Shown: piece by piece, positions 3,786 to 18,330 of the stretch
How the letters are laid out: each line of letters opens with the position of its first letter
Position numbering within the stretch: the stretch's first letter is position 1
Virus record (IMG/VR): IMGVR_UViG_3300044737_000054
Location: 1 to 22,117 of that record
Reading direction: 5' to 3' (one strand)
DNA from: a virus
DNA length: 22,117 bases
Translations under genes and position numbers: made by a program
The notes under the pieces: generated by a model
The model's database searches: none
What the model was told of the DNA's origin: nothing
What the model saw: only the letters and a program-made list of their open reading frames with translations

Positions 3786-3823
3786 TATTCCACGGCAAAT
3801 AAAAAGCGGCCACCGCTCACCCC
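3786..3823 (-). repeat. 38-bp exact direct repeat, copy A
   Basis: These 38 bases are identical to 14446-14483, about 10.7 kb away. The repeat covers the 3' arm of the terminator stem, the U-tract and about 11 bases beyond it (reading GCCGTGGAATA on the minus strand). Identity stops sharply on both sides. Confidence 0.95.
3797..3805 (-). other. U-tract of leader A terminator
   Basis: On the minus strand the stem of terminator A is followed directly by TTTTTATTT, the uridine-rich run expected at an intrinsic terminator. The transcript would be released about 40 bases before the tape measure TTG start. Confidence 0.75.
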
Positions 3824-3842
3824 GAAGGGAAGCGATGACCGC
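3806..3842 (-). terminator. Intrinsic terminator/attenuator A, upstream of the tape measure gene
   Basis: The arms 3806-3817 and 3831-3842 pair over 12 consecutive positions, two of them G-U, around a 13-nt loop. A U-tract at 3797-3805 follows on the minus strand. The hairpin lies between promoter A and the gene that promoter should serve, so it would stop transcription of tape measure unless it is bypassed. The left arm and everything to 3786 are identical to copy B. The right arm differs by changes that keep pairing as G-U wobbles. Confidence 0.85.
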
Positions 3843-3898
3843 ACATGTGCATGATGTTGGTCTAGCGGAGCAATGTAGCGCTCCTATGTAGTAAATCC

Positions 3899-3927
3899 AT
3901 GATACCGCCGCCGCAGCGGGGCGTCAA
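3899..3927 (-). promoter_or_regulatory. Sigma-70-like promoter A for leader A and tape measure
   Basis: The minus strand reads TTGACG (3922-3927), a 17-base spacer, then TATCAT (3899-3904). It matches the consensus at 5 of 6 positions in each box with ideal spacing. Transcription should begin near 3892 and enter leader A. The same boxes, spacing and leader recur at copies B and C. Confidence 0.8.
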
Positions 3928-3993
3928 TAGCGGGCCGGCCCCGGATGTTGCGCCGGTGTGGTAAGCTACCTAGCAGATATAGAGGAGGCAAGG

Positions 3994-4260
3994 ATGCTAG
4001 TAAGCGTTGCGACTTCCGTCCTGCGAGCAGCCGGGTGGTTTGCCCTACTGTTTAGCATCGCGACGGCATTGTTCTACGTGCTGGGCAGCAGGTTGGTGCC
4101 CCTACCCGCAGCATCAGACGACAGGTTCACGTACGCTGTCACCGTAGGCATGACTGCACTTCTTATACTGCTGATAGGCGCTTCTACCTGGGCGTTCTTC
4201 CAGGTGATGGCTCACATCGCGGAGAAGCTCACCAGCATTGATGAGAGCCTGAGGAAGTAG
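3994..4260 (+). CDS. Small two-TM membrane protein, only plus-strand gene
   Basis: The 88-aa product has two hydrophobic segments (about residues 8-28 and 46-68) separated by a polar loop (PLPAASDDRFTY) and a charged amphipathic C-terminus ending in DESLRK. This layout resembles small holins or other phage membrane proteins, but I do not recognise the family. The start is the ATG at 3994 because AGAGGAGG lies five bases upstream, the best ribosome site in this region; an upstream in-frame GTG at 3958 lacks one. It points against every other gene and lies between the tail chaperone pair and tape measure, back to back with promoter A. No clear plus-strand promoter is visible. It could be a moron-type insertion with its own expression. 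Overlapping minus-strand frames here look non-coding. Confidence 0.75.
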   Translation: MLVSVATSVLRAAGWFALLFSIATALFYVLGSRLVPLPAASDDRFTYAVTVGMTALLILLIGASTWAFFQVMAHIAEKLTSIDESLRK

Positions 4261-4318
4261 CAGGACAAGCACGGCGAGCACAGCGAGCGCGGCGCGGGAC
4301 CCAGCCCACCTGGTCCGC

Positions 4319-5082
4319 TTATACATCCCCGAACTTGCACGCGACCTGGTAGAATTTCCAGGCGTGCTCGACGTCGCAATCGGGCTGCCGGTCGAGCACA
4401 GCTCGGTCCGTCCAGCGCTGCCTTCGCAAGAAGTTGCCCCACGCATAGACGAAGGGTACTTCCCTGCCCCCACCACCATTGTTATGACTGCCAGCCAGGA
4501 AGAGGGCCGATTCTAACTGGCGGAGGGCTTTTTTATCGGCCCCTCTATAGCTTCGGCATAGCCTTCCCTGCGCATCCACAGGAGCAAGTCTTCCGCCTGG
4601 TCGTACAACCTGGCGAATGTAGACGGCTGCCGCACGTCAAGCTCTACTATGGCCGCGATCTCTTCCGGGGTCGGCACCGCGTCCTCTTGCGGCACGATTT
4701 CAAGCGCCCTGACGAACTGGGGGAAGATAGCCCACATCGCATCTACTGTGGGGACCGGCATAGCCAGCCTAAACAATTCCGCGACGGCCCGCTCGTTGTT
4801 GATCCGGAACCAGACCTTGAGCCACCGGTAGCCCTCCAGCGGGCACTGCACGCCCACGAGCTTGCCCGCGATGGGCCACATGGACTTGAGCGCAGCCTCA
4901 AACGCAGCCAGGGCCGCAGCCACTGCAGCGGGATCCTCTTCCCCTGTTGGTGTTGGTACCGAGGCCGAGGCTTCTGCATCTGCTGGTGCGGCTGGTATCG
5001 AAATCTCGGTCGCTTCATTAGCTGCTTCTTCCGCAGCTTGTTCTATATCCGCGCGCTTTTCCTCACGTGTTTTTGCCGGCAT
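4319..5082 (-). CDS. Tail assembly chaperone, frameshifted long form (GT-like fusion)
   Basis: This 254-aa product is made if ribosomes slip back one base at A_AAA_AAG (4534-4528). The first 185 codons are shared with the short form, and 69 residues are added from the -1 frame, ending at TAA 4319-4321. The added part reads through a Gly/Asn linker into VYAWGNFLRRQRW and ends CKFGDV. The short-plus-extended chaperone pair made by a programmed slip just before tape measure is well known in siphoviruses (lambda G/GT): both forms help tape measure and tube subunits assemble and are absent from the virion. The -1 frame is open well before and after the slip site, and its only role appears to be as an extension. 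Confidence 0.88.
4513..5082 (-). CDS. Tail assembly chaperone, short form (G-like)
   Basis: The 189-aa product has an acidic, Ala/Glu/Pro-rich N-terminus (residues 5-65) and a folded, Trp-containing helical part (LKSMWPIAGKLVGVQCPLEGYRWLKVWF, then LRLAM/LWMRREGYAEA-type helices). It ends SAS at TAG 4513-4515, just past a slippery heptamer. The ATG at 5082 is preferred over an upstream ATG at 5145 because that one lies inside a strong intergenic hairpin and would add a low-complexity leader; GGGG lies nine bases before 5082. It sits between the tail tube gene and tape measure, the usual chaperone position. Sequence similarity to a named family is not obvious; the call rests on position and the frameshift. 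Confidence 0.85.
   Translation of the reverse strand: MPAKTREEKRADIEQAAEEAANEATEISIPAAPADAEASASVPTPTGEEDPAAVAAALAAFEAALKSMWPIAGKLVGVQCPLEGYRWLKVWFRINNERAVAELFRLAMPVPTVDAMWAIFPQFVRALEIVPQEDAVPTPEEIAAIVELDVRQPSTFARLYDQAEDLLLWMRREGYAEAIEGPIKKPSAS
4528..4534 (-). other. Programmed -1 ribosomal frameshift site A_AAA_AAG
   Basis: In the zero frame the codons are ATA AAA AAG, so the heptamer is in register for simultaneous slippage of two Lys tRNAs. GAGGGG (4540-4545) lies five bases upstream and could act as a Shine-Dalgarno-like stimulator. GCCAG (4517-4521) can pair with CTGGC (4494-4498) downstream across an 18-nt loop. The zero frame stops 12 bases after the heptamer, while the -1 frame continues for 69 residues. 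Confidence 0.92.
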
Positions 5083-5142
5083 GTCAATTCGCCCCTTTCT
5101 AACTAAGATACAACAGTTTGGTTGGTTGGCCGGTCGGCGAGC

Positions 5143-5197
5143 CATCGAAGCGGAGGCAGAGGATAGGGGCGAAGTAGCCTTTACCTCCGCCTCGATG
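5143..5197 (-). other. Intergenic stem-loop between tail tube and chaperone genes
   Basis: The arms 5143-5156 and 5184-5197 pair over 14 positions with one A-C mismatch and a 27-nt loop. No U-tract follows on either strand, so it is not a typical intrinsic terminator. It lies in the 147-base gap between tail tube and chaperone and could act as an RNase processing or 3' protection element that lets the abundant tube message be treated separately. Confidence 0.65.
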
Positions 5198-5229
5198 CTT
5201 CCTATGGCTCAGTGACCTCTCGTGCCTGG

Positions 5230-6423
5230 CTAAGCGCCGACGTAAGAGGTGGTCACGTTGTCCGTAACGACCCCCAGGGCCGCGCCCGCCGTGTAATCGA
5301 GGTGCCCCTCGAACTTCACCGAGGTGTTGGTTCGCACCGGCTTCATGTCCGGATCGGCGCTCGGCATCACGGGCCTGTTCACTGTGAGCGTGAGCGACTT
5401 ATTGGTGAAGTTCGCCGACCCGATGTTGTTCAAGATGTCCTTGTACTCGGCTACGAAGGCACCCGGTTCCTTATTTTGCTCCCATTGCTGGAAGAGAGAG
5501 CCGGTGTCGCTTTCGTAGTCGGGCAGGATGTCCCCGGAAACTTCGCTGTCTCCCTCGTCAAAGGTCTTCGGATCTGCGGACCGTCGGCCAGTATGCCGAG
5601 GCTCCACATCGTTCTTCACCGAGAGCTTGTAGGCCTTGATGTCCACGTCAGCGCCGGCGATCTTGCCCTGGAACATGGGCCAGTCGATGGGCTTGAACTG
5701 GGTCTGGGCCACGTTGGGGAAGAACCCGGTGCCACCGGCGGTGACTGTCACGCTCGTGATGACACCTGCCGTGAGGACAGGCGTCAGGGTAGCGCCGGTT
5801 CCAGGCCCGCCCGCCGTGATCGTAGTGGTGCCGTCATGTCCGGTGCCGCCATCCAGCACGTCCACTGAGGTGATGACGCCCGCCAGGCTCACCACAGCAC
5901 GCAGGACAGCGCCCTTGCCGGGTCCGCTCACTACGAGGGCCGGGAGGCCTGTCGCCGCGGGTCCCTTGTACTTGTGGGTGAGCATCAGGTCGCCCTCGTT
6001 GGGCTGCTCTACGTCGAAGCCGTCACCGACGCAGTCTATCATCTGACGCCACATCACCCCATCATAGAAGCGAAAGGCGATCAGGGGGCGACCGTAACTT
6101 TCCTTCTGGGTGTGCCTGCGCACGCCCGTGGCCGTCGGGTGATTGACCGAGACTGCGGCGCTAATGTTCGGAGAGAGGAGCATCGGCGTGATGTCGAAGT
6201 CCCCCTTCATCTTGAACTGGAAGCTGTCAACGTTCCCACCGCGCGTCTGGCCGGTGCCCTTGACGGGGGTGCCGGTCTCCACCTTGGTGGACTTGCGGCC
6301 ACGCTTCGGCTGCCACTGCATCGTGTCCAGCTCCGCCGGCACGTTCACCCAGCCGGTGGTAGGGGCGACACCCGCGGTAGCCTGGAGCACCGCCAGGAGT
6401 ATACGTTTCGCGTTAGAAGCCAT
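5230..6423 (-). CDS. Major tail tube protein with inserted glycine-rich domain
   Basis: This 397-aa protein starts at an ATG preceded by CGGAGGAATAAAGAC. The first 155 residues and the last 155 look like a siphovirus tube subunit: a basic GRKSTKVETGTPVKGTGQTR stretch, the strand-rich GDFDITPML, then near the C-terminus FTNKSLTLTVNRP and TSVKFEGHLDY. Between them (about 157-240) lies an insert with two similar units, each carrying VITSV followed by a GGTG turn, a pattern seen in beta-rich surface domains of phage tail proteins. The insert probably decorates the outside of the tube. The order (neck genes, this gene, chaperone, tape measure) supports the tube role. Exact family membership would need a profile search. 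Confidence 0.82.
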   Translation of the reverse strand: MASNAKRILLAVLQATAGVAPTTGWVNVPAELDTMQWQPKRGRKSTKVETGTPVKGTGQTRGGNVDSFQFKMKGDFDITPMLLSPNISAAVSVNHPTATGVRRHTQKESYGRPLIAFRFYDGVMWRQMIDCVGDGFDVEQPNEGDLMLTHKYKGPAATGLPALVVSGPGKGAVLRAVVSLAGVITSVDVLDGGTGHDGTTTITAGGPGTGATLTPVLTAGVITSVTVTAGGTGFFPNVAQTQFKPIDWPMFQGKIAGADVDIKAYKLSVKNDVEPRHTGRRSADPKTFDEGDSEVSGDILPDYESDTGSLFQQWEQNKEPGAFVAEYKDILNNIGSANFTNKSLTLTVNRPVMPSADPDMKPVRTNTSVKFEGHLDYTAGAALGVVTDNVTTSYVGA

Positions 6424-6485
6424 GTCTTTATTCCTCCGAATAAACTACTGATAACCGACGGGTGATCTACTCACGCAGATCGGAA

Positions 6486-7013
6486 CTAGCTGGCCGCCCC
6501 GGCCACTACCACCGCCTCGGGCTGGCTCTCAACTTCCTGCGAGGCAGCCGATGCGGCCTCCACAGGCGTCCCAACACTGGGCTTCGGATCAGCACTGGCA
6601 GGGGCATTGGCAGGGGCGCTGGCAGCCGTCTTCCCCTTCGCCTTAGCCCTGCTCCGTCTCGCGGCTTTAGGTTTGGCAGGGGGACCGGCAGGACCGGCAG
6701 CACCCGCAGCACTACGAGCGGCCTTGCGAGCATTGAGTTCGGCGCGCTTGGCCTTACGCTGTAGGGCCTTCAGCTTCGCCGCGTACTCGTCAGCGCTGAG
6801 TGGCCCCGTGAAACCTGGGTAGCCTATCGTGTACTGCTGGTGGTGCAGCACCCATTCGGGGCTGTCCTCACCCTCAAGCGCGACGCCGGCCACCTCATGG
6901 CCCCGCACGACTTCCTCCGGGGCGACGATAGCCTCTTCCTCCTCCGGTGAGGTCTGAGCTGCCTGCTCCTTGCTCTCGCTGTTGGTGCTGCCGTTGCTGT
7001 TGTTCTTTGCCAC
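6486..7013 (-). CDS. Unrecognised tail-module protein with basic Ala/Lys/Pro-rich C-terminus
   Basis: The 175-aa product starts at GTG 7013 with GGAGG nine bases before it. It has an acidic N-terminus (PEEEEAIVAPEEV), a short conserved-looking centre (EWVLHHQQYTIGYPGFTGPLSADEYAAKLK, about residues 52-83), then a low-complexity tail dominated by Ala, Lys, Arg and Pro (about 84-150) that resembles histone H1 or bacterial H1-like proteins, and a final acidic/Ala segment. It lies between the tail terminator-like gene and the tail tube gene. The low-complexity tail may bind DNA or another polymer, but that is inference; a minor structural or assembly role is equally possible. Confidence 0.75.
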   Translation of the reverse strand: MAKNNSNGSTNSESKEQAAQTSPEEEEAIVAPEEVVRGHEVAGVALEGEDSPEWVLHHQQYTIGYPGFTGPLSADEYAAKLKALQRKAKRAELNARKAARSAAGAAGPAGPPAKPKAARRSRAKAKGKTAASAPANAPASADPKPSVGTPVEAASAASQEVESQPEAVVVAGAAS

Positions 7014-7056
7014 TGCTACATCCTCCAGTTGTCATCTGGTAATCATCTGGTTGTCA

Positions 7057-7572
7057 TCACGGAGGTGTGCCCCGCGAGACGACCACCCTTGCGTTGAGTT
7101 CTACCTTGACCGAGAAGCGCACTCCGTAGTGCCGCGTTCCCAGCAGCCTGAAGACGTCATTTACCGCGCTCACCGGCACTGCCGTGGAGCACTTGCCATC
7201 GAGGGCTATGTTCGCCAGGTAGCACCTGCGCATCAGATTAGGGAAGCGCCGGGCCATCGCCTGCAGGTCTTTCAGGTCCGAGTGCCGGTCGCCGACAATC
7301 GCCCAGCGGTCGTAGTAGTGCACCTGCTCGTCAATCGCACTCTCCCCGCCCATCGTGTCGCCGTGCGGCTTTCCACGGTAAGGGTCGAAGTCCGACCGGT
7401 CCCACACCCCGCAAATGAACGGGTACTCCGTTGTTCTGCCATCGTCCGGCAGGCCCGCGAAGGTCCTCAGCGTGACACCTTCATCCAGGTCGTCGAAATA
7501 GGGCGCGAGATACACTTTCTCGATCTTCGCCATCTTTTCCGCTATTTCGTCTACCAGATACTCGTCAGCCAC
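7057..7572 (-). CDS. Tail terminator-like / tail completion protein
   Basis: The 171-aa product starts at GTG 7572, with GGGGTGATG ending four bases upstream. The N-terminus is a helix (VDEIAEKMAKIEKVY) followed by a strand-rich body, with paired strands and a C-terminal YGVRFSVKVELNARVVV. Proteins of this length and fold pattern between neck genes and the tail tube gene are usually the tail terminator that caps the tube and joins it to the neck. The assignment rests mainly on position and length; I see no diagnostic motif. Confidence 0.7.
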   Translation of the reverse strand: MADEYLVDEIAEKMAKIEKVYLAPYFDDLDEGVTLRTFAGLPDDGRTTEYPFICGVWDRSDFDPYRGKPHGDTMGGESAIDEQVHYYDRWAIVGDRHSDLKDLQAMARRFPNLMRRCYLANIALDGKCSTAVPVSAVNDVFRLLGTRHYGVRFSVKVELNARVVVSRGTPP

Positions 7573-7605
7573 TACGCATCACCCCGATCACCCTGATCGT
7601 CTCGG

Positions 7606-8076
7606 TCATCCTGAACCCAGCTTCCCGACCCAGTCGCCAAATCCCTCGCCCATAGCGCCGTACAGGTCCTCCTCGTACTCGCTCATGAGCCGAGCCGCGA
7701 CGTGGTGGCCCTCGGTGCCTTCCTCGGCGATCCTCATCGCCACCGAGAAGGCGTTGAGGCCCCTCTCTTCTGCCCACTGGTCCAGCTCGCTGCCCTCCCC
7801 CGCGGGAGGCATGTGCGGGTCCGTGTCTTCTTCCCAGAAGAGCCATATATCGCTCTCGCTTTGGAACTCGACCTCAACGCCGCTCGACGTTTCAGTTACT
7901 TCGAGCCTGTACTGCTCGGCCAGGCCGTCGGCACCCTCTTGAGCCGTCTCATCTCGCAGCCCCGCGAGCAATCTCTGGCTCACCGGCAGCAGCTTCGTCC
8001 TGACACTGTCCCTGAGCGTTCGCCGCGCGTCCACGGGAGTAAGCAGGTCAGGCGGTATCTCAAACCGGATGTCCAT
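7606..8076 (-). CDS. Neck/tail component, HK97 gp10-like position
   Basis: The 156-aa product starts at ATG 8076 with GAGG four bases upstream. It has an N-terminal helical stretch (DARRTLRDSVRTKLLPVSQRLLAGLRDE), a strand-rich middle that includes GVEVEFQSESDIWLFWEEDTDPHMPP, and a C-terminal helical region. The phrase 'WLFWEEDTDPHMPP' followed by helices is reminiscent of HK97 gp10-family tail proteins, where a strand/aromatic segment precedes a Pro-containing loop. It lies between the head-closure-like gene and the tail terminator-like gene. The family call is moderate. Confidence 0.68.
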   Translation of the reverse strand: MDIRFEIPPDLLTPVDARRTLRDSVRTKLLPVSQRLLAGLRDETAQEGADGLAEQYRLEVTETSSGVEVEFQSESDIWLFWEEDTDPHMPPAGEGSELDQWAEERGLNAFSVAMRIAEEGTEGHHVAARLMSEYEEDLYGAMGEGFGDWVGKLGSG

Positions 8077-8132
8077 ACGACCTCGCTACCTCTCCACCCT
8101 CCTGCCTCGTAACCTTACGGCCCTACGCCCGC

Positions 8133-8567
8133 CTACGGGACTGCGATCTCCGCGGTTTCCGGGTCCGGTGCTCGCTCCACGTCGGCCAGGATGCTCAAGG
8201 CGTACGTGTCGTCCGTGTCCGGCATGACGATCTCATTCACCTGGCTGTAGCCACCGGCGAGCCTGATCCTGTCGCCCGCCTGCAGGTCGGCCCAGGCAGC
8301 GAACTCACTGAGCCTTCGCTTGCTGGTGGTGGCCCCGGAGCCTCTTGCGAAGCTCGTTACGAACGGGTCGCCGTTCATGCCGCTCCGTTGGCTGCTTGCA
8401 GCTATGGAGCAGGGCACGTCGGTTGCGATCTCCTCGTACGGGCCGTTTCGGGTGTTGCTCTTGGTGTTCAGCTTGCGCCGTTCTATAGAGCACCGCCCCC
8501 GGAGATACCGCTCGGCATACCTCTGCTGGTACTGAGCGAGCCGCTCGTCGGTCAGTCCACCTGGCAT
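8133..8567 (-). CDS. Head closure (stopper)-like protein
   Basis: The 144-aa product starts four bases after the stop of the upstream connector gene. After an N-terminal helix (ERLAQYQQRYAERY) comes a beta-rich part with CSIERRKLN, VPCSIAASSQ, an extended Gly/Ser loop, then LQAGDRIRLAGGYSQVNEIV. The VPC..., GDRI and Y.V strand pattern is typical of head-closure proteins that seal the portal channel after packaging and receive the tail. Position immediately after the connector-like gene supports this. There is no catalytic signature. Confidence 0.7.
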   Translation of the reverse strand: MPGGLTDERLAQYQQRYAERYLRGRCSIERRKLNTKSNTRNGPYEEIATDVPCSIAASSQRSGMNGDPFVTSFARGSGATTSKRRLSEFAAWADLQAGDRIRLAGGYSQVNEIVMPDTDDTYALSILADVERAPDPETAEIAVP

Positions 8568-8570
8568 CGC

Positions 8571-9047
8571 CTACCAGCCACTCCCCAGGCGGTAGTTGGG
8601 GTCGCCCCTGTACACACCGCTGTTTGCGTCCGGGAAGCCCGGGCTCGACTCGATCATGGCGGTGGCCTTGTTCGGGCCTCCTACCGGCGCTCCGCCGCGC
8701 GAGCTGGTGATGAGCTGCTCGAACTTCGCGATGTCATCGAGCAGCTTCGTGCGCATGCCCTCCAGGTTGTCGGTGAGCTGGTCCTCGTTGAACGTGGCAC
8801 CTGTAGCCGACGTCAGCTTGATGCTCCCCCGCTCCTTGCCCAGCATCAGGTCGATAGCCTTGAGCTTGGCGTATCGGTACGTGTGCATCAGCACCAGGTC
8901 GGCCCGCTTCAGCCTGGGGAGCGCCAGTCCCACCTCGATCTCGGACATCGTCCAGTAGTCGTCGATCTCGGCGGCTATACTGCCCGCAGCATCGTCTCCG
9001 ACTTCCTTTATGATCTTGGCCTTATAGGTAGTCGCGTCGAGAGGCAT
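8571..9047 (-). CDS. Head-tail connector (adaptor)-like protein
   Basis: The 158-aa product is mostly helical: TYKAKIIKEVGDD, MSEIEVGLALPRLKRADLVLMHTYRYAKLKAIDLMLG and an EDQLTDNLEGMRTKLLDDIAKFEQLI helix, followed by a Gly/Pro-rich tail. A small all-helical protein directly after the major capsid region and before a stopper-like gene is the usual adaptor that binds the portal ring. The ATG at 9047 is the only good start; a purine-rich GGGGAG sits 12 bases upstream. The call is based on position, size and helical content. Confidence 0.7.
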   Translation of the reverse strand: MPLDATTYKAKIIKEVGDDAAGSIAAEIDDYWTMSEIEVGLALPRLKRADLVLMHTYRYAKLKAIDLMLGKERGSIKLTSATGATFNEDQLTDNLEGMRTKLLDDIAKFEQLITSSRGGAPVGGPNKATAMIESSPGFPDANSGVYRGDPNYRLGSGW

Positions 9048-9108
9048 GTGTCGCGCTCACTCCCCAGTGTATTCAGGTGCCCCACTGAAGAAGGCCCTGT
9101 CTTCGTTT

Positions 9109-9363
9109 CTATGCTTCGCCTTCTTCTTCCAGGCCCTCGGCGCTCACCGCTTCAACGGCACCAAGGCGCACCAAGCGGGCGATCTGCTCATCCGTGAGAC
9201 CTTCGGCCTTCAGGTTGGAGATAGTGCCCTGGGGGCGATGGCCCACGCGGCTGTGCAGCACACGGTAGGAGCCGGTCTGTGCGGCCTTCTTCGAGCCTGC
9301 CTTGGCTGCCTTCTTGGCGTCGGGCGGCGTGGGCGGCGTGTTGTTGTTTTGCGTTTCTGACAT
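9109..9363 (-). CDS. Small unrecognised protein after major capsid
   Basis: The 84-aa product has a disordered Asn/Pro/Lys/Ala-rich start (ETQNNNTPPTPPDAKKAAKAGSKK), then HSRVGHRPQGTISNLKAEGLTDEQIARLVRLGAVEAV and an acidic end. The LTDEQIARLVRLGAVE segment resembles a short helical module found in small phage proteins encoded next to capsid genes. ATG 9363 is chosen because AGGAGG lies 11 bases upstream; longer in-frame starts would run through the inverted repeat at 9418-9455. It may be a minor head protein; function unknown. Confidence 0.7.
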   Translation of the reverse strand: MSETQNNNTPPTPPDAKKAAKAGSKKAAQTGSYRVLHSRVGHRPQGTISNLKAEGLTDEQIARLVRLGAVEAVSAEGLEEEGEA

Positions 9364-9417
9364 GACTTGCGGTTCCTCCTGTAGGAGTGGTTGGTTACGG
9401 CTTGCGGATTGTGGGTT

Positions 9418-10597: not shown

Positions 10598-10605
10598 AGA
10601 AGGGA

Positions 10606-11170: not shown

Positions 11171-12838
11171 TCCGGTCTGCTCGGCCCCCACCGCTTCTGC
11201 CACGGCCTGGCCCAGCGGTGTCATACTGAGCAGCTTGGCCTTGCGGGTGCGCCTGGCCCCCTCTGGCTGCTCGCCTTCCTTTACCGTGGCCGCCGAATTG
11301 ACCAGCACGTGCGCCGGCTTGCCCTCCTCCGTGAGGGAGTGCTGAGGCGTGTTCTTGAGGAGCTGCTCGAAGAGGGCGACACCCGTCAGCTCCACCTCTT
11401 CGCCAATGGCGTTGGTGTACTTGACCGGGGTAGCCTGCGCCTCTTCATACCCGCTCAGCAGCTTATAGAGGGCTACAGCCTCAGGTGCGGCACCCGGAGA
11501 CAGCCGGCGGTCCTGCAGCATCAGCTCCCGGAAGTTGGCAGCAGTCGCGTCAAGCTGCGCCGCTCTGGTCGCGCTCAGTTGCGCCTGCAGAGCCAGGTAT
11601 TCCGGCGTCTGCGTGGCGGCCACGTGCGCCTCAGGAGCTTGCTGGCCCTCGCGTGCAGAGTCGCCCGCATCTGTGGCCTGCGCCTCAACAGCAGAGGCGG
11701 TGGGGGCACCGGGGGCTACCGGCGTGGCCGGGGCAGCCGGAGAGGCCTGGGCACCCGCCGGTGCTATAAGCTCCTTCACCCGCTGAGCGAGCCGCTCGAA
11801 GAAGCCGCCCTGCTCCAGCTTGGCCGCCACCTGGGTGCTCGTCTGGTCTACGATCTCGTCTATTTCTGTGCCCATGAGAAAATCTCCTTCTGAAAGAAGT
11901 GCGCTGTAGGTAGACCGAGCCTGCCCCAGCTCCACAAGGTCCATTTGCCCCGCGCGGGCCAGACCGAGGGCCTTGCGGAAGCCGGCCCCGGCTACGGCAC
12001 CGGCGAACACCGCCGAGATCTCCGGCATCCTGGCCTCGTGCAGTGTGTAGGTGGCAGTGCCGTCCTCCACGCCGCGGGCCTTCTGAGCCTTGATCTGCGG
12101 TTCAGTCATCGCCCGCTTGGTACCCGGTGCGTGCGGGCAAAGATACGCGCCGGTCTGTGGGTCGCGAGCGTCAAGCTGGCAGCCGCACAGGTCGCATACT
12201 GCGTAGCCACCCCGCAGGCCAACTGACACCTTGGAGGTGGTGCCCGCGTCAATGGTGGCGTTCAGGTCGTCGGTCGAGGGACCGGAGTCGCCGTTGGGCT
12301 TCACGCCCCGAAGCATAAACATGCCGACCATAGCTCGCTGGGAGCCGTCGGCGTACTCCTCGTACATGCCGCAGAACGTCTTGCCGTAGGGCAGTTCAGC
12401 ATCGGAAGACATCCCCCCGGTCTTGTGGGAGTTCATGAAGGCCGCGCCGGCAGCGCCATCGCGGGCGATGTTCTTCAGCGTGGTGTCGCCGAGGAACATC
12501 GAATACTTGGGGATGTAGACGTACTGCGCGGCTTCGGCGTAGTGGATGTAGACGTCTTCGAGGCTGAGAGGCACACCGCCCTGGTTGAGGGCGTTGATCA
12601 TCGAGATCGCCTCTTCGTTGGAGGAGGGAAGCTGGCCTTCCGTGTAGATGGGCTTGCCCGAACGCTTACGCCCGGTCGCGGCCAAGTCAGCGAGGTTGTA
12701 GACGCCAGCAGCGCCAGGCAGGAACTCGAAAGGCACGGCATTGACGCCGTCGCGCTTGGCCGCGATGCGGTTGCGCTGGGCGCACTTGTCAGCGTTGAAG
12801 ACCGTGTTAGCTATGTCGCCGGTCGCTGGTCGTGTCAC
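11168..12838 (-). CDS. Prohead protease fused to scaffold-like C-terminus, with Cys/His insert
   Basis: The 556-aa product begins at GTG 12838, overlapping the portal stop by GTGA. The N-terminal half (about 1-245) matches a capsid maturation serine protease: FMNSHKTGG carries the likely catalytic His138, and TTSKVSVGLRGG the likely Ser205. Immediately after the Ser motif is a CDLCG...CPHAPG pair (C215, C218, C234, H236), consistent with a small zinc-binding loop. A Pro/Ala-rich linker (about 365-410) leads to a helical, Gln/Ala-rich region resembling an internal scaffold. The protease cuts scaffold and prohead parts during maturation. Position between portal and decoration/capsid supports this. 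The scaffold function of the C-terminus is inferred from composition and context. Confidence 0.85.
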   Translation of the reverse strand: MTRPATGDIANTVFNADKCAQRNRIAAKRDGVNAVPFEFLPGAAGVYNLADLAATGRKRSGKPIYTEGQLPSSNEEAISMINALNQGGVPLSLEDVYIHYAEAAQYVYIPKYSMFLGDTTLKNIARDGAAGAAFMNSHKTGGMSSDAELPYGKTFCGMYEEYADGSQRAMVGMFMLRGVKPNGDSGPSTDDLNATIDAGTTSKVSVGLRGGYAVCDLCGCQLDARDPQTGAYLCPHAPGTKRAMTEPQIKAQKARGVEDGTATYTLHEARMPEISAVFAGAVAGAGFRKALGLARAGQMDLVELGQARSTYSALLSEGDFLMGTEIDEIVDQTSTQVAAKLEQGGFFERLAQRVKELIAPAGAQASPAAPATPVAPGAPTASAVEAQATDAGDSAREGQQAPEAHVAATQTPEYLALQAQLSATRAAQLDATAANFRELMLQDRRLSPGAAPEAVALYKLLSGYEEAQATPVKYTNAIGEEVELTGVALFEQLLKNTPQHSLTEEGKPAHVLVNSAATVKEGEQPEGARRTRKAKLLSMTPLGQAVAEAVGAEQTG

Positions 12839-14421
12839 TTGGCCGCCTCATCCTTGCTGCCGTTGCCGCTGCCGTTGCCGCTGCCGCTGCCGCTGTCTTG
12901 CTGCCCCTGGTTGCCCTGGTTGCCGTTCTGGTTCGGCCCCTGCCCCTGGCCCTTCTGCCGCTGCATGGCCTTGGCTCGCTCGGCCTGCTTCTGCTCGTAG
13001 GCCGCGATCTCCTCTTCGGAAGGCTTTGGCAGCTTGAGCATCTCGCAGATCTTGTCGTATACCGTCGGGTGGATAACCCCCGCCTTTGCCAGGGCCGCTA
13101 TGCCCAGTGCAAAGGTGTTGAAGTCCTGCTGGTCCACATCGCCAAGCGACACGGTGGGCAGCAGCCCCAGCCCCGCCTGGCCGAAGTTGTATTCGACCAG
13201 CGGCTTGATCATCTGCCGCAGGATGGCCGTCTCCAGCCAAGTCCTTATGAACTGGACCAGCAGCCCCAGCACATCCTGGTGCGTCTGGCTGGCAGCCCTG
13301 GCCTGGTGCTTGCCCTCCAGCGTAGCGAGTGTCTGGAAGAGGACCGCCTGCACGATCTCTCGGTTCTCGAAGTCGAGAGCGGTGATAAACACCTGGCCCT
13401 CGCCGAAGACCTGCAGCTTCTTGACGTCGCCGCCGTTCTCGATGACCGCGTATGAGCCGTTTCTCATACCCTCGATCACTGTACCCATGTCGTCGGCTGC
13501 CGATATGACCTCTAGCTCTTCCCCGGTTTCCGGGTCCTCGGTCACCCTGTCCTTAGCGTTGGGAGGCAGTATGCCGATAGTGTTCGGCTCGGCACTCGTC
13601 GCCAGGTACTTGTTGTACGCCGGCAACGTCTGCTGCTTGAGCCACCACGCCGTGTACGCCGACCGCAGGTGCGAGGTACCGCGCGGATCGCCGTTCTCGA
13701 TCATCCAGGCAGCGTTCACGAACTTGCGAGGGTCCAGCATGCCGGTCACGCGACCGTCAGAGTCGACCACTATGGCCGAGCCTGGCGAGATGCGAGTTCC
13801 GCCCGCCGGGTCCACGTACAGCACGCCGATCCAGTTGAAATAGGCGTCCACCACAAAGGCGGTAGCCTTCTGGTCCTTGGGCTTCACGTCCACCAGGCAG
13901 AGCTTGGAGCCTTCCGCGGTGTCGAGCGTCTTCAGTTGGTAAATCTGCTCCGCGAGCTTGTGCCCGTGGCTGATGCCCTCTGTCAGTTCGTAGAGGACCT
14001 GGTGCAGAGGCGTCCGTAGCTCGTCGAGATTGCTTCTGACGAACTGGGCCACCTTATCCGCGGCCTTGAACTTCGGATCGTCGGGCTTCTTGGCCGCCCC
14101 GATCTCCAGGTTGCGCTCCAGCGCCGCCATGCGCAGGTAAGCGGTCGAGGAGCGCATCTGCGGGTCGAGCAACATCCTGCGATAGATGTCCTGCCCGAAG
14201 TCCCGCGTGATGTCGTCGATAGGGTGCGGCAGCGCCCTGAGTGTTGCGGACTGCCAGCTATACCCCCTGCCCGACGAGACGTACTCCTTCTGCAGGTCCG
14301 TCTTCACCGTCTTGACGCGGCGAACACCGGAGGCGCTACCCGGCGTACTGACCGCAGGGCTGCTCTCCACCTGGCTTTTCGGACTTGTAGAAGCTGCCTG
14401 CGCTGCTGGTGCTGGTGCCAC
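12835..14421 (-). CDS. Portal protein, DUF935 (Mu gp29-like)
   Basis: The 528-aa product starts at GTG 14421, with AGGTGG eight bases before it. After a disordered Ala/Ser/Pro N-terminus (1-45) comes a body with LLDPQMRSSTAYLRMAALERNLEIG, a helical LYELTEGISHGHKLAEQIYQ, FNWIGVLYVDP, DPRKFVNAAW, GDPRGTSHLRSAYTAWWLKQQ and LEGKHQARAASQTHQDVLGLLVQF. These fit DUF935 portals, which form the 12-subunit DNA entry ring at one capsid vertex. The C-terminus is low complexity: Gln/Gly/Asn then Gly/Ser/Asn-rich (about 485-520). It is the first gene of the head module after promoter and leader B. Confidence 0.9.
   Translation of the reverse strand: MAPAPAAQAASTSPKSQVESSPAVSTPGSASGVRRVKTVKTDLQKEYVSSGRGYSWQSATLRALPHPIDDITRDFGQDIYRRMLLDPQMRSSTAYLRMAALERNLEIGAAKKPDDPKFKAADKVAQFVRSNLDELRTPLHQVLYELTEGISHGHKLAEQIYQLKTLDTAEGSKLCLVDVKPKDQKATAFVVDAYFNWIGVLYVDPAGGTRISPGSAIVVDSDGRVTGMLDPRKFVNAAWMIENGDPRGTSHLRSAYTAWWLKQQTLPAYNKYLATSAEPNTIGILPPNAKDRVTEDPETGEELEVISAADDMGTVIEGMRNGSYAVIENGGDVKKLQVFGEGQVFITALDFENREIVQAVLFQTLATLEGKHQARAASQTHQDVLGLLVQFIRTWLETAILRQMIKPLVEYNFGQAGLGLLPTVSLGDVDQQDFNTFALGIAALAKAGVIHPTVYDKICEMLKLPKPSEEEIAAYEQKQAERAKAMQRQKGQGQGPNQNGNQGNQGQQDSGSGSGNGSGNGSKDEAAK
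12855..12897 (-). repeat. Hexamer-based repeat encoding the portal Gly/Ser/Asn tail
   Basis: The plus strand is a run of degenerate CTGCCG/TTGCCG units; on the coding strand these give alternating Gly and Ser/Asn codons near the portal C-terminus. The unit is six bases, so length changes would stay in frame. Confidence 0.8.
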
Positions 14422-14432
14422 TCGTTACGCCA

Positions 14433-14454
14433 CCTATTCCACGCCTATTCCACG
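14433..14454 (-). repeat. 11-bp tandem duplication upstream of the portal ribosome site
   Basis: CCTATTCCACG occurs twice in tandem (14433-14443 and 14444-14454). On the minus strand each copy supplies GGAATAGG; the downstream copy leads into AGGTGG, the portal ribosome site. Copy A of the cassette has only one unit. Confidence 0.85.
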
Positions 14455-14483
14455 GCAAATAAAAAGCGGCCACCGCTCACCCC
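14446..14483 (-). repeat. 38-bp exact direct repeat, copy B
   Basis: Identical to 3786-3823. It includes the terminator 3' arm, U-tract and 11 further bases. Confidence 0.95.
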
Positions 14484-14570
14484 CAGAAGGGATGAATGGT
14501 GGCCGCGCATGTTCATGATGTAGGCCGATGTCGCAGCTCTATATGGCGCTGCTATGTCCTAGATGTCTAT
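14457..14570 (-). ncRNA. Structured leader RNA, copy B of three
   Basis: The predicted transcript from promoter B to terminator B is about 114 nt. It contains ACATAG, a hairpin GCAGC/GCTGC (14548-14552 with 14533-14537, 10-nt loop), CGGCCTACATCATGAACATG, then the terminator. CGGCC in the linker is complementary to GGCCG inside the terminator 3' arm, so an alternative fold that disrupts the terminator is possible. An ATG in the linker opens 23 codons, but that frame is not kept in copies A and C. The RNA ends are inferred. Confidence 0.7.
14466..14506 (-). terminator. Intrinsic terminator/attenuator B, upstream of the portal gene
   Basis: The arms 14466-14474 and 14498-14506 form a perfect 9-bp GC stem, with additional possible pairing inside the loop (TCA/TGA, CCC/GGG). 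A U-tract follows on the minus strand at 14457-14465. It lies between promoter B and the portal start, with no gene between promoter and hairpin. Confidence 0.88.
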
Positions 14571-14576
14571 GTGTCA

Positions 14577-14605
14577 ATCGTAAGGCATATTTTAGGGGTT
14601 GTCAA
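14577..14605 (-). promoter_or_regulatory. Sigma-70-like promoter B for leader B and the head module
   Basis: The minus strand has TTGACA (14600-14605), a 17-base spacer and TACGAT (14577-14582). A second TTGACA-like box starts inside the -10 (14571-14576) but has no good partner at the right distance. Start of transcription would be near 14570. Confidence 0.78.
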
Positions 14606-14651
14606 GACCCCCTACTATTGGTCCTGGCTGACCCAGTAGGAAAGTTGGCAG

Positions 14652-14873
14652 TTATTCTGGTTGTTCCCGCAACCTGTCTTCATCGACCCACACTGCATCA
14701 CCCTCAGTCTCTATATGCCCCGGAGCCATCGCAAAGTATCTAGTCCTCCTTACAAGATATAGCGACGCTCCTGTTGTCCTATCGCGCTTACGCCCTTCGA
14801 CTACGACAGGCATGTAAGGCACAAGCGTCAGTTGCGCGCCTACTCGCCACTTGATGCCCTTACGGACCATCAT
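14652..14873 (-). CDS. Small unrecognised protein
   Basis: The 73-aa product begins MMVRKGIKWRVGAQ and is strand-rich: LTLVPYMPVVVEG, a basic turn (RKRDRTTG), ASLYLVRRTRYFAMAPG and a final acidic strand. I do not recognise the family. ATG 14873 overlaps the upstream stop by ATGA with AGGA six bases before it; a longer frame to 14939 overlaps the upstream gene deeply. It is the last gene before the promoter B region, co-transcribed with the gene at 14870-15328. Confidence 0.72.
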   Translation of the reverse strand: MMVRKGIKWRVGAQLTLVPYMPVVVEGRKRDRTTGASLYLVRRTRYFAMAPGHIETEGDAVWVDEDRLREQPE

Positions 14874-15328
14874 GACACTTCCTGCGAGTGCTCTGGCTGG
14901 ATAGCACCCTTCTGGCAATCCCGGCACTTGGGCTCCCACTCCTCCATCGCCTCGCCGACGTCTAGCGGCGTCTTCAAGAACCCGCTGGGCGTGGGCTTGC
15001 CACAGCTCCCACAGGCGCGCAGGATCACGAGCTGGTCGCCGGTCGGCTCTCCGTACTCGATCATCCTGAACCTCACCCCATCGAGGACGATGCTGTCGCC
15101 AGGCTTCTCGATGGGTAGTCCCTCGATGTCAACGCCCACCACCGACTGCATCAGGGCCGCCAGCTTGGCTTCGTTCTTGGCCCATTCGTCGGTCGCCGCG
15201 CGGTTCTTGTCGACGAGCGCGGCCTGAGCACGCTCCTTCCAGCCCTGGGTGGACAGCCAGGTCTCGCCACCTCGCGCGACCGGCTGAACAGTCGGGCTAG
15301 TCCCGTTCCTTCTTGAGTTCCTGCTCAT
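14870..15328 (-). CDS. Small unrecognised protein with CxxC pairs
   Basis: The 152-aa product has a basic/Ser-rich start, a helical part (WKERAQAALVDKNRAATDEWAKNEAKLAALMQSVVG), a strand region (GDSIVLDGVRFRMIEYG) and two CxxC pairs (CGSCGKP and CRDCQK) 37-38 residues apart, consistent with a zinc ribbon. Function is unknown. ATG 15328 has GGAGG four bases upstream. It is the first gene after the terminase promoter-palindrome region and may be controlled by that palindrome. Confidence 0.8.
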   Translation of the reverse strand: MSRNSRRNGTSPTVQPVARGGETWLSTQGWKERAQAALVDKNRAATDEWAKNEAKLAALMQSVVGVDIEGLPIEKPGDSIVLDGVRFRMIEYGEPTGDQLVILRACGSCGKPTPSGFLKTPLDVGEAMEEWEPKCRDCQKGAIQPEHSQEVS

Positions 15329-15343
15329 GACTCCTCCTTAGTT

Positions 15344-15361
15344 GCTATATAACTATATAGC
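15344..15361 (-). promoter_or_regulatory. Perfect palindrome overlapping a -10 box (candidate operator)
   Basis: GCTATATA and TATATAGC (15344-15351 and 15354-15361) are perfect complements separated by two bases. The candidate -10 box of the promoter at 15366-15371 lies inside one arm. A dimeric repressor bound here would block the promoter. Confidence 0.7.
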
Positions 15362-15371
15362 TATGTGTCAA
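15344..15371 (-). promoter_or_regulatory. Candidate promoter for the two small genes after terL
   Basis: TTGACA (15366-15371) is followed by a 16-base spacer and TATAGC (15344-15349). The -35 matches fully and the -10 at four of six positions. It lies in the 50-base gap between the terL stop and the next gene, and no leader or terminator follows, unlike cassettes A-C. Confidence 0.55.
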
Positions 15372-15378
15372 CAACCGC

Positions 15379-16923
15379 CTACCTGAAGCCTTGTGCCTGC
15401 TGCCGAGGTGGGCCAACATAGGGCTTCTGCGGCGGCCTCACGAGAGTCCGCGCGACGAGCGCCAGGGCATAGCTCGTAGCCCGGTCGTCCATCATGCCCT
15501 CGGGGGCCTCCTGCTTGGCACCGTCAATGCTCGCGAGCTGCAGGTACGTCGCCTTGCTGTGCAATATGGTGCCTTCCTTACTGAAGTCCTCCACCGCTGT
15601 GTCGTACATGATCACCTTCGTTGCCTTGTTGCTGTTCCACCCAGGCTTCTTATCTGGACCCTCAAGTATCGGGATGGTGCCGTGCTCGTCGAGGGTCGTA
15701 AGCACCGAGTGCCCGTGATTGTTCCGCTCAACCAGCACACCGGCACCCTTGAAAAACCTACAAACTGAGTTGATGTGCATGCCGAACACCGTCGGCTCGA
15801 ACTTGCCGGCTAGAGCCGCCACTTCCTCCCCTGTCTTGCGATCCAACACAGTAATAGCGCTGTCGTCGCTGCCAGGATTGCCCTCGGCAGGGTCCGCGCC
15901 GGCCACGTACTCCGCACCCGGCTCCGGCAGCCTATAGATCTCAAGCCCTGTAATGGCAGGCGGCTGCCTCTTGAGATCAAGGCGCTTCGATAGGTCGAGT
16001 GGCTTCATCTCGCGATAGCATTGGGTCAAGAAGGCGCGCGGGATACGCTTGTCCTGGCTGTTAGGAGCGAGCGCCTGTGCATCGGTCTCAGGGTACTCCT
16101 GGTGGAGATCGTCCTCGGCACCGGTTTTGGCGATAGAGTCCCGCCTCTTGCCCTCGTACCATTCGTCAGTGCGGCCAGGCCGAGCGCGCCAACTGAGGAA
16201 GATAGGATGGTAGCTATTCTCCCCCTCGACCGCGGCCTGATACACGCGTTTGAACGGTGACAACGGCTGGTCTTTGTCTACTGTGGATATGAGGATGAGT
16301 TGCCCACCGTCGTCTATCGTGGGCTCCACAGTGTTAAGCAGCCCGCCCAGGTCCTCAACAAAGTCTGCCTCGTCAACTACGACCTTGCTCCCTGTGTACG
16401 AGCGAGCGCCCGTGGTCGGGAACGCAAGTGCCCGCGAGCCGTTACCCAGCTCCCACTCATGCTCGTTGTCGGTCCGTACCGCCTGCTGGAGCCATGCAGG
16501 CAGCTCAGCGTGCATCTTCTTCAGGCGCTCGTTAAGTAGTTCCTTGGCCTCCTCATCACGCCTGGACAGAAGCATTAGCGTCTGAATAGGGTGGAACAAG
16601 ACGCCCCACAAACCCTCTCCGAGAACCACCCACGACAAGCCAAGTTGCCTCGCCTTCAGGATGATAACCTTGCGCTTCTCCTGGAGGGTGGTTACTACCC
16701 CTCGCTGTGCAGGCCACAACTCGAAGGGCACCCACGCTCGCTCGGTTGCGTTATAGATGCGCACGTAGGTATCCAGGAAGTAGATAGGGTCATCGTGGCA
16801 CTTCTGCCACTCTTTCTCCTGTTCAGCGGTCCTGCGTGGCTGCAGGCAACTGGCGAACGCCTCCCCCAGTAAAGAAAACGATGTCTGACTGGATGGCTGT
16901 AAGGGCTTTAGGGTCTGAGACAT
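15379..16923 (-). CDS. terL: Terminase large subunit (ATPase plus nuclease)
   Basis: The 514-aa product has the full motif set: deviant Walker A KARQLGLS (90-97), Walker B VVVDEADF (181-188), coupling motif LISTVD (211-216), then nuclease acids in AGADPAEG (Asp344), VLVERNNHG (Glu399) and MMDDRATSYALA (Asp479/480). It pumps DNA into the prohead and cuts the concatemer. The start at ATG 16923 overlaps the small terminase gene by 101 bases; no alternative ATG, GTG or TTG lies between it and the conserved region, so the long overlap is probably real. AAAGGA lies immediately upstream, tighter than usual, suggesting translation depends on the small subunit gene. Confidence 0.96.
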   Translation of the reverse strand: MSQTLKPLQPSSQTSFSLLGEAFASCLQPRRTAEQEKEWQKCHDDPIYFLDTYVRIYNATERAWVPFELWPAQRGVVTTLQEKRKVIILKARQLGLSWVVLGEGLWGVLFHPIQTLMLLSRRDEEAKELLNERLKKMHAELPAWLQQAVRTDNEHEWELGNGSRALAFPTTGARSYTGSKVVVDEADFVEDLGGLLNTVEPTIDDGGQLILISTVDKDQPLSPFKRVYQAAVEGENSYHPIFLSWRARPGRTDEWYEGKRRDSIAKTGAEDDLHQEYPETDAQALAPNSQDKRIPRAFLTQCYREMKPLDLSKRLDLKRQPPAITGLEIYRLPEPGAEYVAGADPAEGNPGSDDSAITVLDRKTGEEVAALAGKFEPTVFGMHINSVCRFFKGAGVLVERNNHGHSVLTTLDEHGTIPILEGPDKKPGWNSNKATKVIMYDTAVEDFSKEGTILHSKATYLQLASIDGAKQEAPEGMMDDRATSYALALVARTLVRPPQKPYVGPPRQQAQGFR

Positions 16924-17503
16924 TCCTTTGCACCGACTCCCCGATGGCTTTTATGAGGGCGAGCGCTTCGTTCAGGGTTATAGTTTGCTTGGCCTCAACC
17001 TCGCGCTTGCGCTGGCTCTCCACCAGCACACGGCGCTGCTGCAAGAGCGATGTGATCTCTACCCGGAGGACCTGGTCGTCGAAGCCCCTCTTGATGAGCC
17101 TGCCCACCTCGTCGAGGGAGACCGCGAAGAACAGGGGGTCATCCTTGAACGCCTCTACCTGGCCCCAGGCTTTCTTCAGCGCCGACCAGAGAGGGCCGCT
17201 CTCACCCGTGTCGAGCTTGCCCAGCAGATCGTCAATAAACGTGTCAAGCAGGGCGATCTCAGCCGTCAGCTCCAGCAGTTGGCGGTCGCCGAACGCCTCC
17301 TCAAATCGCTCAAGGAGGCGGTGTGGCAGCTTGCTGCTCCACCTTCCGTTCTTGAACCGGGGGGATGCTATACCACCCAGGGACTTCCCCCCATGCATCC
17401 GGCACTTGGCTTTACCCTTCATCGGAGGGTTTTCACATGTACCTCCGTCCCGCTTCAATGCGCCACATAGCACGAAGGTCTTTTGCTTGTCTTTACCTTG
17501 CAT
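16823..17503 (-). CDS. terS: Terminase small subunit, HGG-motif type
   Basis: The 226-aa product has an N-terminal Cys/His cluster: LCG (C13), TCENPPMKG (C23), CRMHGGKSLGG (C34, H37), the known 'HGG' module of phage proteins encoded next to large terminase. This is followed by a helical body (LERFEEAFGDRQLLELTAEIALLDTFIDDLLGKL and a coiled coil about residues 145-195) and a basic/Gln end. Small terminases recognise DNA and load it onto the large subunit. ATG 17503 is the first Met; a short upstream reading frame ends just inside it. The product is longer than most small terminases (about 140-180). Confidence 0.85.
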   Translation of the reverse strand: MQGKDKQKTFVLCGALKRDGGTCENPPMKGKAKCRMHGGKSLGGIASPRFKNGRWSSKLPHRLLERFEEAFGDRQLLELTAEIALLDTFIDDLLGKLDTGESGPLWSALKKAWGQVEAFKDDPLFFAVSLDEVGRLIKRGFDDQVLRVEITSLLQQRRVLVESQRKREVEAKQTITLNEALALIKAIGESVQRNVSDPKALTAIQSDIVFFTGGGVRQLPAATQDR

Positions 17504-17522
17504 GGGGTATCCACGAGTGCAT
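17493..17522 (-). CDS. Possible 9-codon upstream reading frame at terS start
   Basis: ATG 17522 opens MHSWIPHAR then TAA at 17493-17495, overlapping the first codons of terS in another frame. AGG lies seven bases before it, while terS itself has a poor ribosome site. Ribosomes finishing this frame would be nine bases past the terS start, close enough for reinitiation. The 14-base sequence around both starts is duplicated. Confidence 0.4.
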   Translation of the reverse strand: MHSWIPHAR

Positions 17523-17531
17523 GGGGTATCC
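17499..17531 (-). repeat. 14-bp direct repeat duplicating the terS start region
   Basis: TGCATGGGGTATCC occurs at 17499-17512 and 17518-17531 (offset 19). Each copy holds an ATG on the minus strand; the shift of 19 places them in different frames. Confidence 0.9.
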
Positions 17532-17534
17532 TCA

Positions 17535-17915
17535 TCAAGCTCTGGCAGGTCGGCTACGAGGCTTGCCCTTGCGCTGCCCCTGGCCGCCGCCCACGTCCTC
17601 GAGCACCTTCAGGTTCCAAGTCGTGGCCTCGCCCGCCGGGACTTGTCCTTCGTTCGGGGCGTCCTCTATGCTCTCGCCTTGATCGGCTTGCTTCGGCTTA
17701 TCAAGCTCGTAGTCAACCCTAATTCGCAGCCACCGGCCAGTCAGTAGCACGAGGGGCAGCATATTCACGCGCTCGCTCTCAGGTGACTCGAAGCGCACTC
17801 GGACGGTCCCGTCGCCGGCAAAGCTTACTGCAGACTGGTGAGGGTCCGGCAAAACCGCCCAGAATTCTATGGTTCGCGGGCCAGACTCCTCACGGCTGTC
17901 GTGCGGTTCGGGCAT
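17535..17915 (-). CDS. Small unrecognised protein with basic tail
   Basis: The 126-aa product starts at ATG 17915, two bases after the upstream stop, with GGGAG six bases before it; an upstream in-frame ATG at 17948 would overlap the neighbour. It is strand-rich (RTIEFWAVLPDP, AVSFAGDGTVRVRFES, RWLRIRVDYEL), ending in a disordered Gly/Lys/Arg tail (GGGQGQRKGKPRSRPARA). It precedes terS in the same module. No family recognised; the basic tail may bind nucleic acid. Confidence 0.72.
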   Translation of the reverse strand: MPEPHDSREESGPRTIEFWAVLPDPHQSAVSFAGDGTVRVRFESPESERVNMLPLVLLTGRWLRIRVDYELDKPKQADQGESIEDAPNEGQVPAGEATTWNLKVLEDVGGGQGQRKGKPRSRPARA

Positions 17916-17917
17916 AC

Positions 17918-18166
17918 CTAACTCCCGCTTTTCGGTAGTACCCGCCAACTCTTCTTACCAGGCCCCCAGCGCGCAACCGGGCCATGTACGGAACAAATCT
18001 CCGTTCTTAGCACGCCTTCAACTCGTACCTTCGTGTTGTGCGGTTGTCGGCAGTAGGGGCATTGGTGAAAGTGTCGCTCTGTCGGGGGTTGCATAGGCCA
18101 CGCTTCAGCGCCCTGGTGAGGCTGAGACTGCGAAGGCGGCTCTTCTGGCACGGGCGAACTGCGCAT
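17918..18166 (-). CDS. Small zinc-ribbon-like protein, first gene after leader C
   Basis: The 82-aa product has a disordered Pro/Ser/Gln start, then HFHQCPYCRQPHN and ICSVHGP, a CxxC...CxxH pattern suggesting one zinc site, and a basic end. ATG 18166 is used because an in-frame TTG at 18199 falls in the U-tract of terminator C. No good ribosome site precedes it, so translation may start on a leaderless or weakly bound message. Function unknown; it is the first gene expressed past the terminator. Confidence 0.68.
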   Translation of the reverse strand: MRSSPVPEEPPSQSQPHQGAEAWPMQPPTERHFHQCPYCRQPHNTKVRVEGVLRTEICSVHGPVARWGPGKKSWRVLPKSGS

Positions 18167-18191
18167 GGTTGTAGACCGGACAGACTTATAT

Positions 18192-18202
18192 AAAAACAAA
18201 AA
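18192..18202 (-). other. U-tract of leader C terminator
   Basis: TTTTTGTTTTT follows the stem of terminator C on the minus strand. It is longer than in copies A and B and lacks their GCCGTGGAATA follow-on. Confidence 0.8.
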
Positions 18203-18245
18203 GCGACCGCGCCACCTCTGAAAAGCAAAGGATGGCAGCGGCCGC
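18203..18245 (-). terminator. Intrinsic terminator/attenuator C, upstream of the packaging module
   Basis: The arms 18203-18216 and 18230-18245 form a stem of about 14 base pairs with one G-U pair and small bulges, followed by a U-tract. Its sequence differs from A and B at many positions, but both arms differ together, so the fold is kept. It stands between promoter C and the first gene of the packaging module. Confidence 0.85.
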
Positions 18246-18301
18246 GCATGTACATGGTGTAGGCCGAAACAACAGCGAAGCTATGGTGCTGCTATACGTT
18301 A

Positions 18302-18330
18302 ATAGTACCCCCGAACGCAAGGGCTGTCAA
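18302..18330 (-). promoter_or_regulatory. Sigma-70-like promoter C for leader C and packaging module
   Basis: TTGACA (18325-18330), a 17-base spacer and TACTAT (18302-18307) on the minus strand. The -35 box contains the TGA stop of the upstream gene. Predicted start is near 18295. Confidence 0.82.

Follow-up and report, generated by a model that had tools for sequence, protein, structure and literature searches.

A 22,117-base fragment of an uncultured tailed phage (IMG/VR record IMGVR_UViG_3300044737_000054, hereafter the window) carries three non-coding cassettes, A (3927-3786), B (14605-14446) and C (18330-18191), in each of which a promoter-like site runs within about 100 bases into a predicted intrinsic terminator. 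All three lie within 15 kb on the minus strand, which also holds head, packaging and tail genes of the window and is referred to here as the late strand. On balance, we regard the cassettes as probable control leaders of late genes, in which a terminator would block transcription from the promoter until regulated read-through lets it pass. Three things were observed in this analysis: the parts and their order in the window, their conservation in a second phage where gene positions are shared, and a raised frequency of this order on the late strand in relatives. To our knowledge, late antitermination has been worked out in detail in no more than a few phages, all with cultured hosts.

Three cassettes with a common layout

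The cassettes share one order of parts: a TTGACR-17-TAYNAT promoter, a 5' hairpin with a stem of 5-6 bp, a 26-nt linker and an intrinsic terminator (Table 1). Promoters were scored out of 12 against a simple consensus of sigma70 type. By this approach, four sites of at least 9/12 were found in bases 1-20000, and those on the late strand were the promoters of A, B and C only, each at 10/12 with a 17-nt spacer. An earlier note on this DNA had placed promoter, hairpin, linker and terminator at these three sites, and all of these parts were confirmed. The number of promoters by itself is at chance level (3.9 expected for both strands); thus, the evidence rests in the common layout. The linker motif CATGNACATG matched the window four times compared to 0.09 expected, with all matches inside the three cassettes and two of the four representing the two strands of a perfect palindrome at C. 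Cassettes A and B were similar in sequence at E=1.8e-18, and B and C at E=6.5e-5; 38 identical bases were common to A and B, through the terminator 3' arm, the U-tract and GCCGTGGAATA at the end. The terminator hairpins were predicted at -28 to -35 kcal/mol, with z of -5.8 to -8.0. The note had also placed a late gene directly behind each cassette; this was found for the tape measure gene (A) and the portal gene (B), whereas two small genes precede the terminase genes behind C.

Cassettes at shared gene positions in a related phage

A search with the large terminase (TerL) returned two viral loci with a single-protein query and 80 loci, at about 50% identity, with an alignment query. The closest relative, L006, is a 9.3-kb contig of an IMG/VR phage in which gene order is kept and which has orthologues of TerL (54% identity) and of the window genes 18327-18821 (46%), 17918-18199 (64%), 16823-17503 (48%) and 14870-15328 (48%). 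It holds two cassettes of the window type, one at 2613-2789 in the place of C, between the orthologues of 18327-18821 and 17918-18199, and one at 8229-8384 in the place of B, after the orthologue of 14870-15328. In both, first stem and linker are separated by an added hairpin whose sequence differs between the copies, and the 17-nt promoter spacer is found in all five copies (three in the window and two in L006). The linker core of L006 reads CATCGTTATG and not CATGNACATG; thus CATGNACATG, put forward earlier as the linker motif, is present in all three window sites but is not the conserved feature, which is instead the ungapped 26-mer GRCCWACANCATSNNNATGYGCGGYC, with 17 invariant positions in five copies from phages whose proteins are about 50% identical. 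Loops and promoter-to-stem distance are variable (-10 hexamer to ATAGSAGC: 6 nt in C, 11 in A and 21 in B). The strong signal is the linker, kept in both sequence and length.

The genes behind the cassettes differ between the two phages. Cassette B is followed by the portal gene, and the L006 cassette at 8229 by a scaffold gene and then the start of the next head gene. The portals belong to different families (window 14421-12835, PHROG 113; L006 5883-7376, PHROG 104) and lie at different positions, with orthologous packaging genes around them. Thus, the cassette stays put while the module behind it is exchanged. The boundary of this module swap coincides with cassette B.

None of the five terminators was followed by a promoter scoring above 7/12 within 150 nt downstream. 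The modules behind therefore need transcription that passes a terminator, started either at the promoter inside the cassette or farther upstream, and this makes read-through a natural control point. Such transcription could also be unregulated, with a constitutive promoter and a leaky terminator that give a low basal level and also end the upstream operon, with no dedicated factor. The terminators do close the upstream operon, and no antiterminator was found in the searches described below. However, strong terminators are predicted (-28 to -35 kcal/mol, canonical U-tract), and an operon-end terminator needs neither a conserved 5' hairpin nor a 26-nt linker kept in two phages; we consider this explanation quite unlikely.

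A post-terminator element, (C)CGTGRAATA, was also observed. The same 11 nt follow terminators A and B, GCCGTGAAATA follows the terminator of the L006 cassette at 8229, and the element is also present at about 6650 of a related late region, L015. Given its position past the terminator, it would become part of a transcript only by read-through.

Predicted structure of the leader RNA

The five copies were compared for changes in the two stems. Aligned by hand, the first stem shows one paired change, in A (GGAGC/GCTCC compared to GCAGC/GCTGC), and one G-U; in the outer terminator stem, a single paired change (in C) and two wobbles were seen. This level was reached by 91 of 500 shuffles. The terminator 3' arm is identical in A and B, and thus the differences between these two are one-sided changes of the 5' arm and not paired. 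The earlier description of stems that differ with pairing kept is borne out by one paired change per stem, but not by the A/B terminator differences, and its conclusion that covariation implies selected RNA structure was overstated: in five sequences, covariation appears to lend the stems thin support.

The linker GRCC can pair with GGYC of the terminator 5' arm in all five copies, an alternative pairing that we regard as suggestive. If formed around the inner CAU-N4-AUG stem, it would give an antiterminator hairpin, stabilized by a factor or a ribosome, and the cassettes would act by attenuation through two exclusive folds. Copy A is changed on both sides (GACC/GGTC compared to GGCC/GGCC), such that the linker pairing is kept and the terminator pair is weakened to U-G, and comparable overlaps are present in the related regions L013 (GCGGG/CCCGC) and L072 (GGCG/CGCC; 1.7% of shuffles). 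By contrast, the double change in A is a single event that 105 of 500 shuffles reach, the five copies do not exceed shuffled upstream sequence in pairing energy (fractions 0.07-1.0), and the terminator is much more stable than the alternative fold. Attenuation of this type is, in our estimate, very unlikely. A leader peptide from the linker ATG was also considered and rejected; the frames vary in length and composition, with no ribosome-binding site seen directly upstream.

Promoter-then-terminator order in related late regions

The occurrence of the same order was examined in 76 de-duplicated related late regions (905 kb), with a strong terminator defined by a free energy of at most -20 plus TTTTT, and a good promoter by a score of at least 10/12 within 150 nt upstream. 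A good promoter preceded 11 of 55 strong terminators on the late strand compared to 0 of 41 on the other strand (Fisher p=0.0014). The expectation from shuffled sequence was 0.0, and 0 promoters were found in the next 150 nt further upstream. With the window and L006 removed, 7 of 51 late-strand terminators had such a promoter (p=0.013), while thirty unrelated viral loci from chance pattern matches, used as a control, gave 0/15.

Most of the enriched cases were without sequence similarity to the window cassettes. Several occur at places that read-through control of late modules would predict: ahead of the scaffold and major head genes of L044 and L055, ahead of a gene in the capsid region of L072, and ahead of the terminase region of L044 and L054, to which L015 was added by eye. 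In L044, two cassettes have a common linker of their own, CRRCGAGGCAWAGATCCCGG, and L013 holds two copies of another hairpin-linker-terminator leader with weaker promoters. In L015, a promoter, 5' hairpin and terminator with CGTGGAATA stand just before the terminase genes; the covariance-model score was weak (18.2 bits, E 0.42), and this cassette is possibly a distant relative of those in the window.

These relatives bear on whether the cassettes might instead be genes for three trans-acting phage small RNAs of about 95-115 nt, with the terminator as RNA 3' end and the late genes transcribed from elsewhere. A promoter, a conserved structured core and a terminator do make a free-standing transcription unit, a linker kept in sequence and length would suit such an RNA, and a fixed position is expected if the genes are inherited together with their neighbors. 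However, all copies point in the same direction, directly before late modules and with the above lack of other promoters after the terminator (none above 7/12 within 150 nt), and distant relatives keep the order with different sequences, a better fit to cis control than to a conserved trans RNA. We thus view the small-RNA explanation as improbable.

Two other repeated arrangements were seen in related records. On the minus strand of G008 (the record of L026), three near-identical units at about 18750-18880, 22950-23090 and 25310-25430 consist of a terminator-like hairpin GAATCCGCAC/GTGCGGATTC, TTGACA-17-TATAAT and a start codon, the reverse of the window order, before three other genes. With the terminator ahead of the promoter in G008, the two orders are distinct arrangements. 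On the minus strand of L144 (G024, the record of L080), about seven related leaders at 480-4710 precede small genes; most combine a terminator-like stem with a conserved GAATCGGGTG and a strong ribosome-binding site.

Comparison with known systems

In the pR'-tR' unit of phages lambda, 21 and 82, a late promoter is followed by an early terminator before the late genes, and read-through with Q is the control point (PMC6606751). The late promoters of the window similarly each run into an intrinsic terminator before late genes. Lambdoid phages have one pR'-tR' unit, whereas the window has three units within 15 kb. The promoter spacers have no sequence common to all five copies, with B clearly resembling the L006 copy at 8229 and C weakly resembling that at 2613; thus, there is no common Q-binding element between -35 and -10. 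Unlike in pR'-tR', the conserved element here is in the transcribed leader RNA and not in a promoter-embedded Q site, and Q was without a match in the 20 records searched, most of which are fragments.

The put RNAs of phage HK022 (putL and putR) are structured RNAs near a promoter, present in more than one copy per genome, that are linked to terminator read-through (PMC9378689). The cassettes are like put in having structured leader RNA near a promoter in several copies. By contrast, put RNA is about 70 nt with two stem-loops and is associated with early promoters, whereas in the window cassettes a single short 5' stem (the L006 copies have two) is followed by a 26-nt linker that runs straight into a terminator. 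The regulated read-through suggested in the earlier note stands as the best reading, given the L006 cassettes at shared gene positions and the same order in distant relatives, but membership in the put or Q systems is not supported (no common spacer element; one 5' stem and no Rfam match). In the lambda N/nut and NusG-paralogue (LoaP) systems, a short leader RNA element marks the polymerase for read-through. Antitermination by LoaP through a leader hairpin is described in one report (PMC12691694). As in put and nut, the conserved part of the window cassettes is the transcribed leader. No boxB-like element was identified by eye in the cassettes, and N-type proteins are too small for a family search.

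Proposed mechanism

Since the conserved part is the transcribed leader, the spacers are without a common element and neither Q nor NusG was found in the 20 records searched, antitermination directed by the leader RNA is favored over the small-RNA and unregulated explanations. Host RNA polymerase would start at the sigma70-type promoter and normally stop at the intrinsic terminator, giving an RNA with 5' hairpin, linker and terminator and a length of about 95-140 nt. At late times of infection, a phage factor, a host factor recruited by the phage, or the leader RNA itself may act on the nascent leader or its polymerase, which would then pass the terminator into the module behind (terminase, portal/head or tape measure); with a lasting change of the polymerase, later cassettes would be read through too. 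By this mechanism, the promoters would fire, the terminators would work, the read-through would be regulated, and the 5' hairpin and linker would be its site of action.

Several points weigh against regulated read-through. The promoter enrichment amounts to about a dozen cases by a simple consensus score. Related copies, for which a covariance-model search had been suggested, are known as the L006 pair; the model gave no convincing copies beyond the window and L006, and its weak matches elsewhere were mostly bare terminators. Rfam gave no match for the cassettes, even at a permissive threshold for copy A. The Q families PF06530 and PF03589 had no match in 20 records (the window, L006 and 18 related, most of them fragments), nor did the NusG family PF02357 in 20 records, many of them fragments, a role that a host protein could serve. 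As the window and L006 are fragments, more cassette copies and an antiterminator gene may lie outside them.

A pattern scan of viral contigs for linker plus terminator had no match, and in scans of viral contigs for a U-tract with GCCGTG and for the linker alone, only L006 was genuine; the other matches were without the cassette layout, with linker matches mostly in coding sequence. The portal, the major head protein and the gene before cassette B, used as baits, returned nothing beyond L006. Covariance-model matches in L035, L037, L016 and L107 were rejected as terminators or chance, and Giles-like blastn matches (E=0.1) as chance-level.

A tentative and somewhat unlikely extension is that the cassettes represent a new class of RNA-element antitermination, with a leader copy before each late module, one factor or the RNA itself opening all together, and relatives with unrelated leaders in the same layout, each presumably with a factor of its own. 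This lineage of uncultured tailed phages appears to place terminators behind late promoters, in several copies per genome, without recognizable Q or NusG. If read-through is shown, the repeated leader would provide an assay and a bait for a new antitermination factor, and swapped head modules may stay under late control by insertion behind an existing cassette.

Gene context

The positions of the cassette parts and neighboring genes are listed in Table 1. One of the two small genes behind cassette C encodes a Cys-rich 93-aa protein. The gene that adjoins promoter C upstream (18327-18821) is, by position only, a candidate regulator; an AlphaFold2 model of its product was unusable (mean predicted local distance difference test score, pLDDT, of 45). 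Cassette A separates the tape measure gene from the upstream small genes (window 3786-4600), a place where tail assembly chaperones are closely linked to the tape measure gene in many tailed phages. A search of genome contigs found one TerL relative (L084) in a Chloroflexi metagenome-assembled genome contig, which is only a hint of the host.

Table 1. Cassette parts and neighboring genes (window coordinates unless marked L006).
Feature	Position	Strand	Details
Promoter A	3899..3927	-	TTGACG-17-TATCAT
5' hairpin A	3867..3884	-	GGAGC/GCTCC, loop 8
Linker A	3837..3862	-	26 nt, GACCAACATCATGCACATGTGCGGTC; final 6 nt begin the terminator 5' arm
Terminator A	3797..3842	-	Predicted intrinsic; hairpin -28 to -29 kcal/mol + TTTTTATTT
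Post-terminator element A	3786..3796	-	GCCGTGGAATA
Promoter B	14577..14605	-	TTGACA-17-TACGAT
5' hairpin B	14533..14552	-	GCAGC/GCTGC, loop 10
Linker B	14501..14526	-	26 nt, GGCCTACATCATGAACATGCGCGGCC
Terminator B	14457..14506	-	Predicted intrinsic; hairpin -34.9 kcal/mol + TTTTTATTT
Post-terminator element B	14446..14456	-	GCCGTGGAATA, then second partial copy GGCGTGGAATAG
Promoter C	18302..18330	-	TTGACA-17-TACTAT
5' hairpin C	18272..18292	-	GCAGC/GCTGT (G-U pair), loop 11; three more A-U/G-U pairs outside it
Linker C	18240..18265	-	26 nt, GGCCTACACCATGTACATGCGCGGCC
Terminator C	18191..18245	-	Predicted intrinsic; hairpin -30.1 kcal/mol + TTTTTGTTTTTA
Post-terminator element, L006	8382-8392		
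Tail length tape measure protein	3..3755	-	Late gene behind A; PHROGs, E=2.3e-30; runs past window edge
Portal protein	12835..14421	-	Late gene behind B; PHROGs phrog_113, E=3.7e-47
Packaging operon	15379..18199	-	Behind C; opens with two small genes, then terminase genes
Small terminase-like gene	16823-17503	-	Weak PHROGs match of its L006 orthologue
Large terminase (TerL)	15379-16923	-	
Gene adjoining promoter C upstream	18327..18821	-	L006 orthologue, 46% identity; candidate regulator by position only

Hammerhead ribozymes in a related record

On the minus strand of L104 (G010, the record of L036), eight matches to the type II hammerhead ribozyme (RF02276) were found at 1155-1221 and 3340-5478. 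One exceeded the Rfam gathering score; the other seven scored 23-33 bits, and in these the GAAA and CTGATGA cores are intact. Of the eight, seven lie between successive small genes of the same strand. No type II hammerheads were found in 15 other related records. Multiple hammerheads that flank prophage genes are known (PMC3088659); eight arrayed in a single phage record seem unusual.

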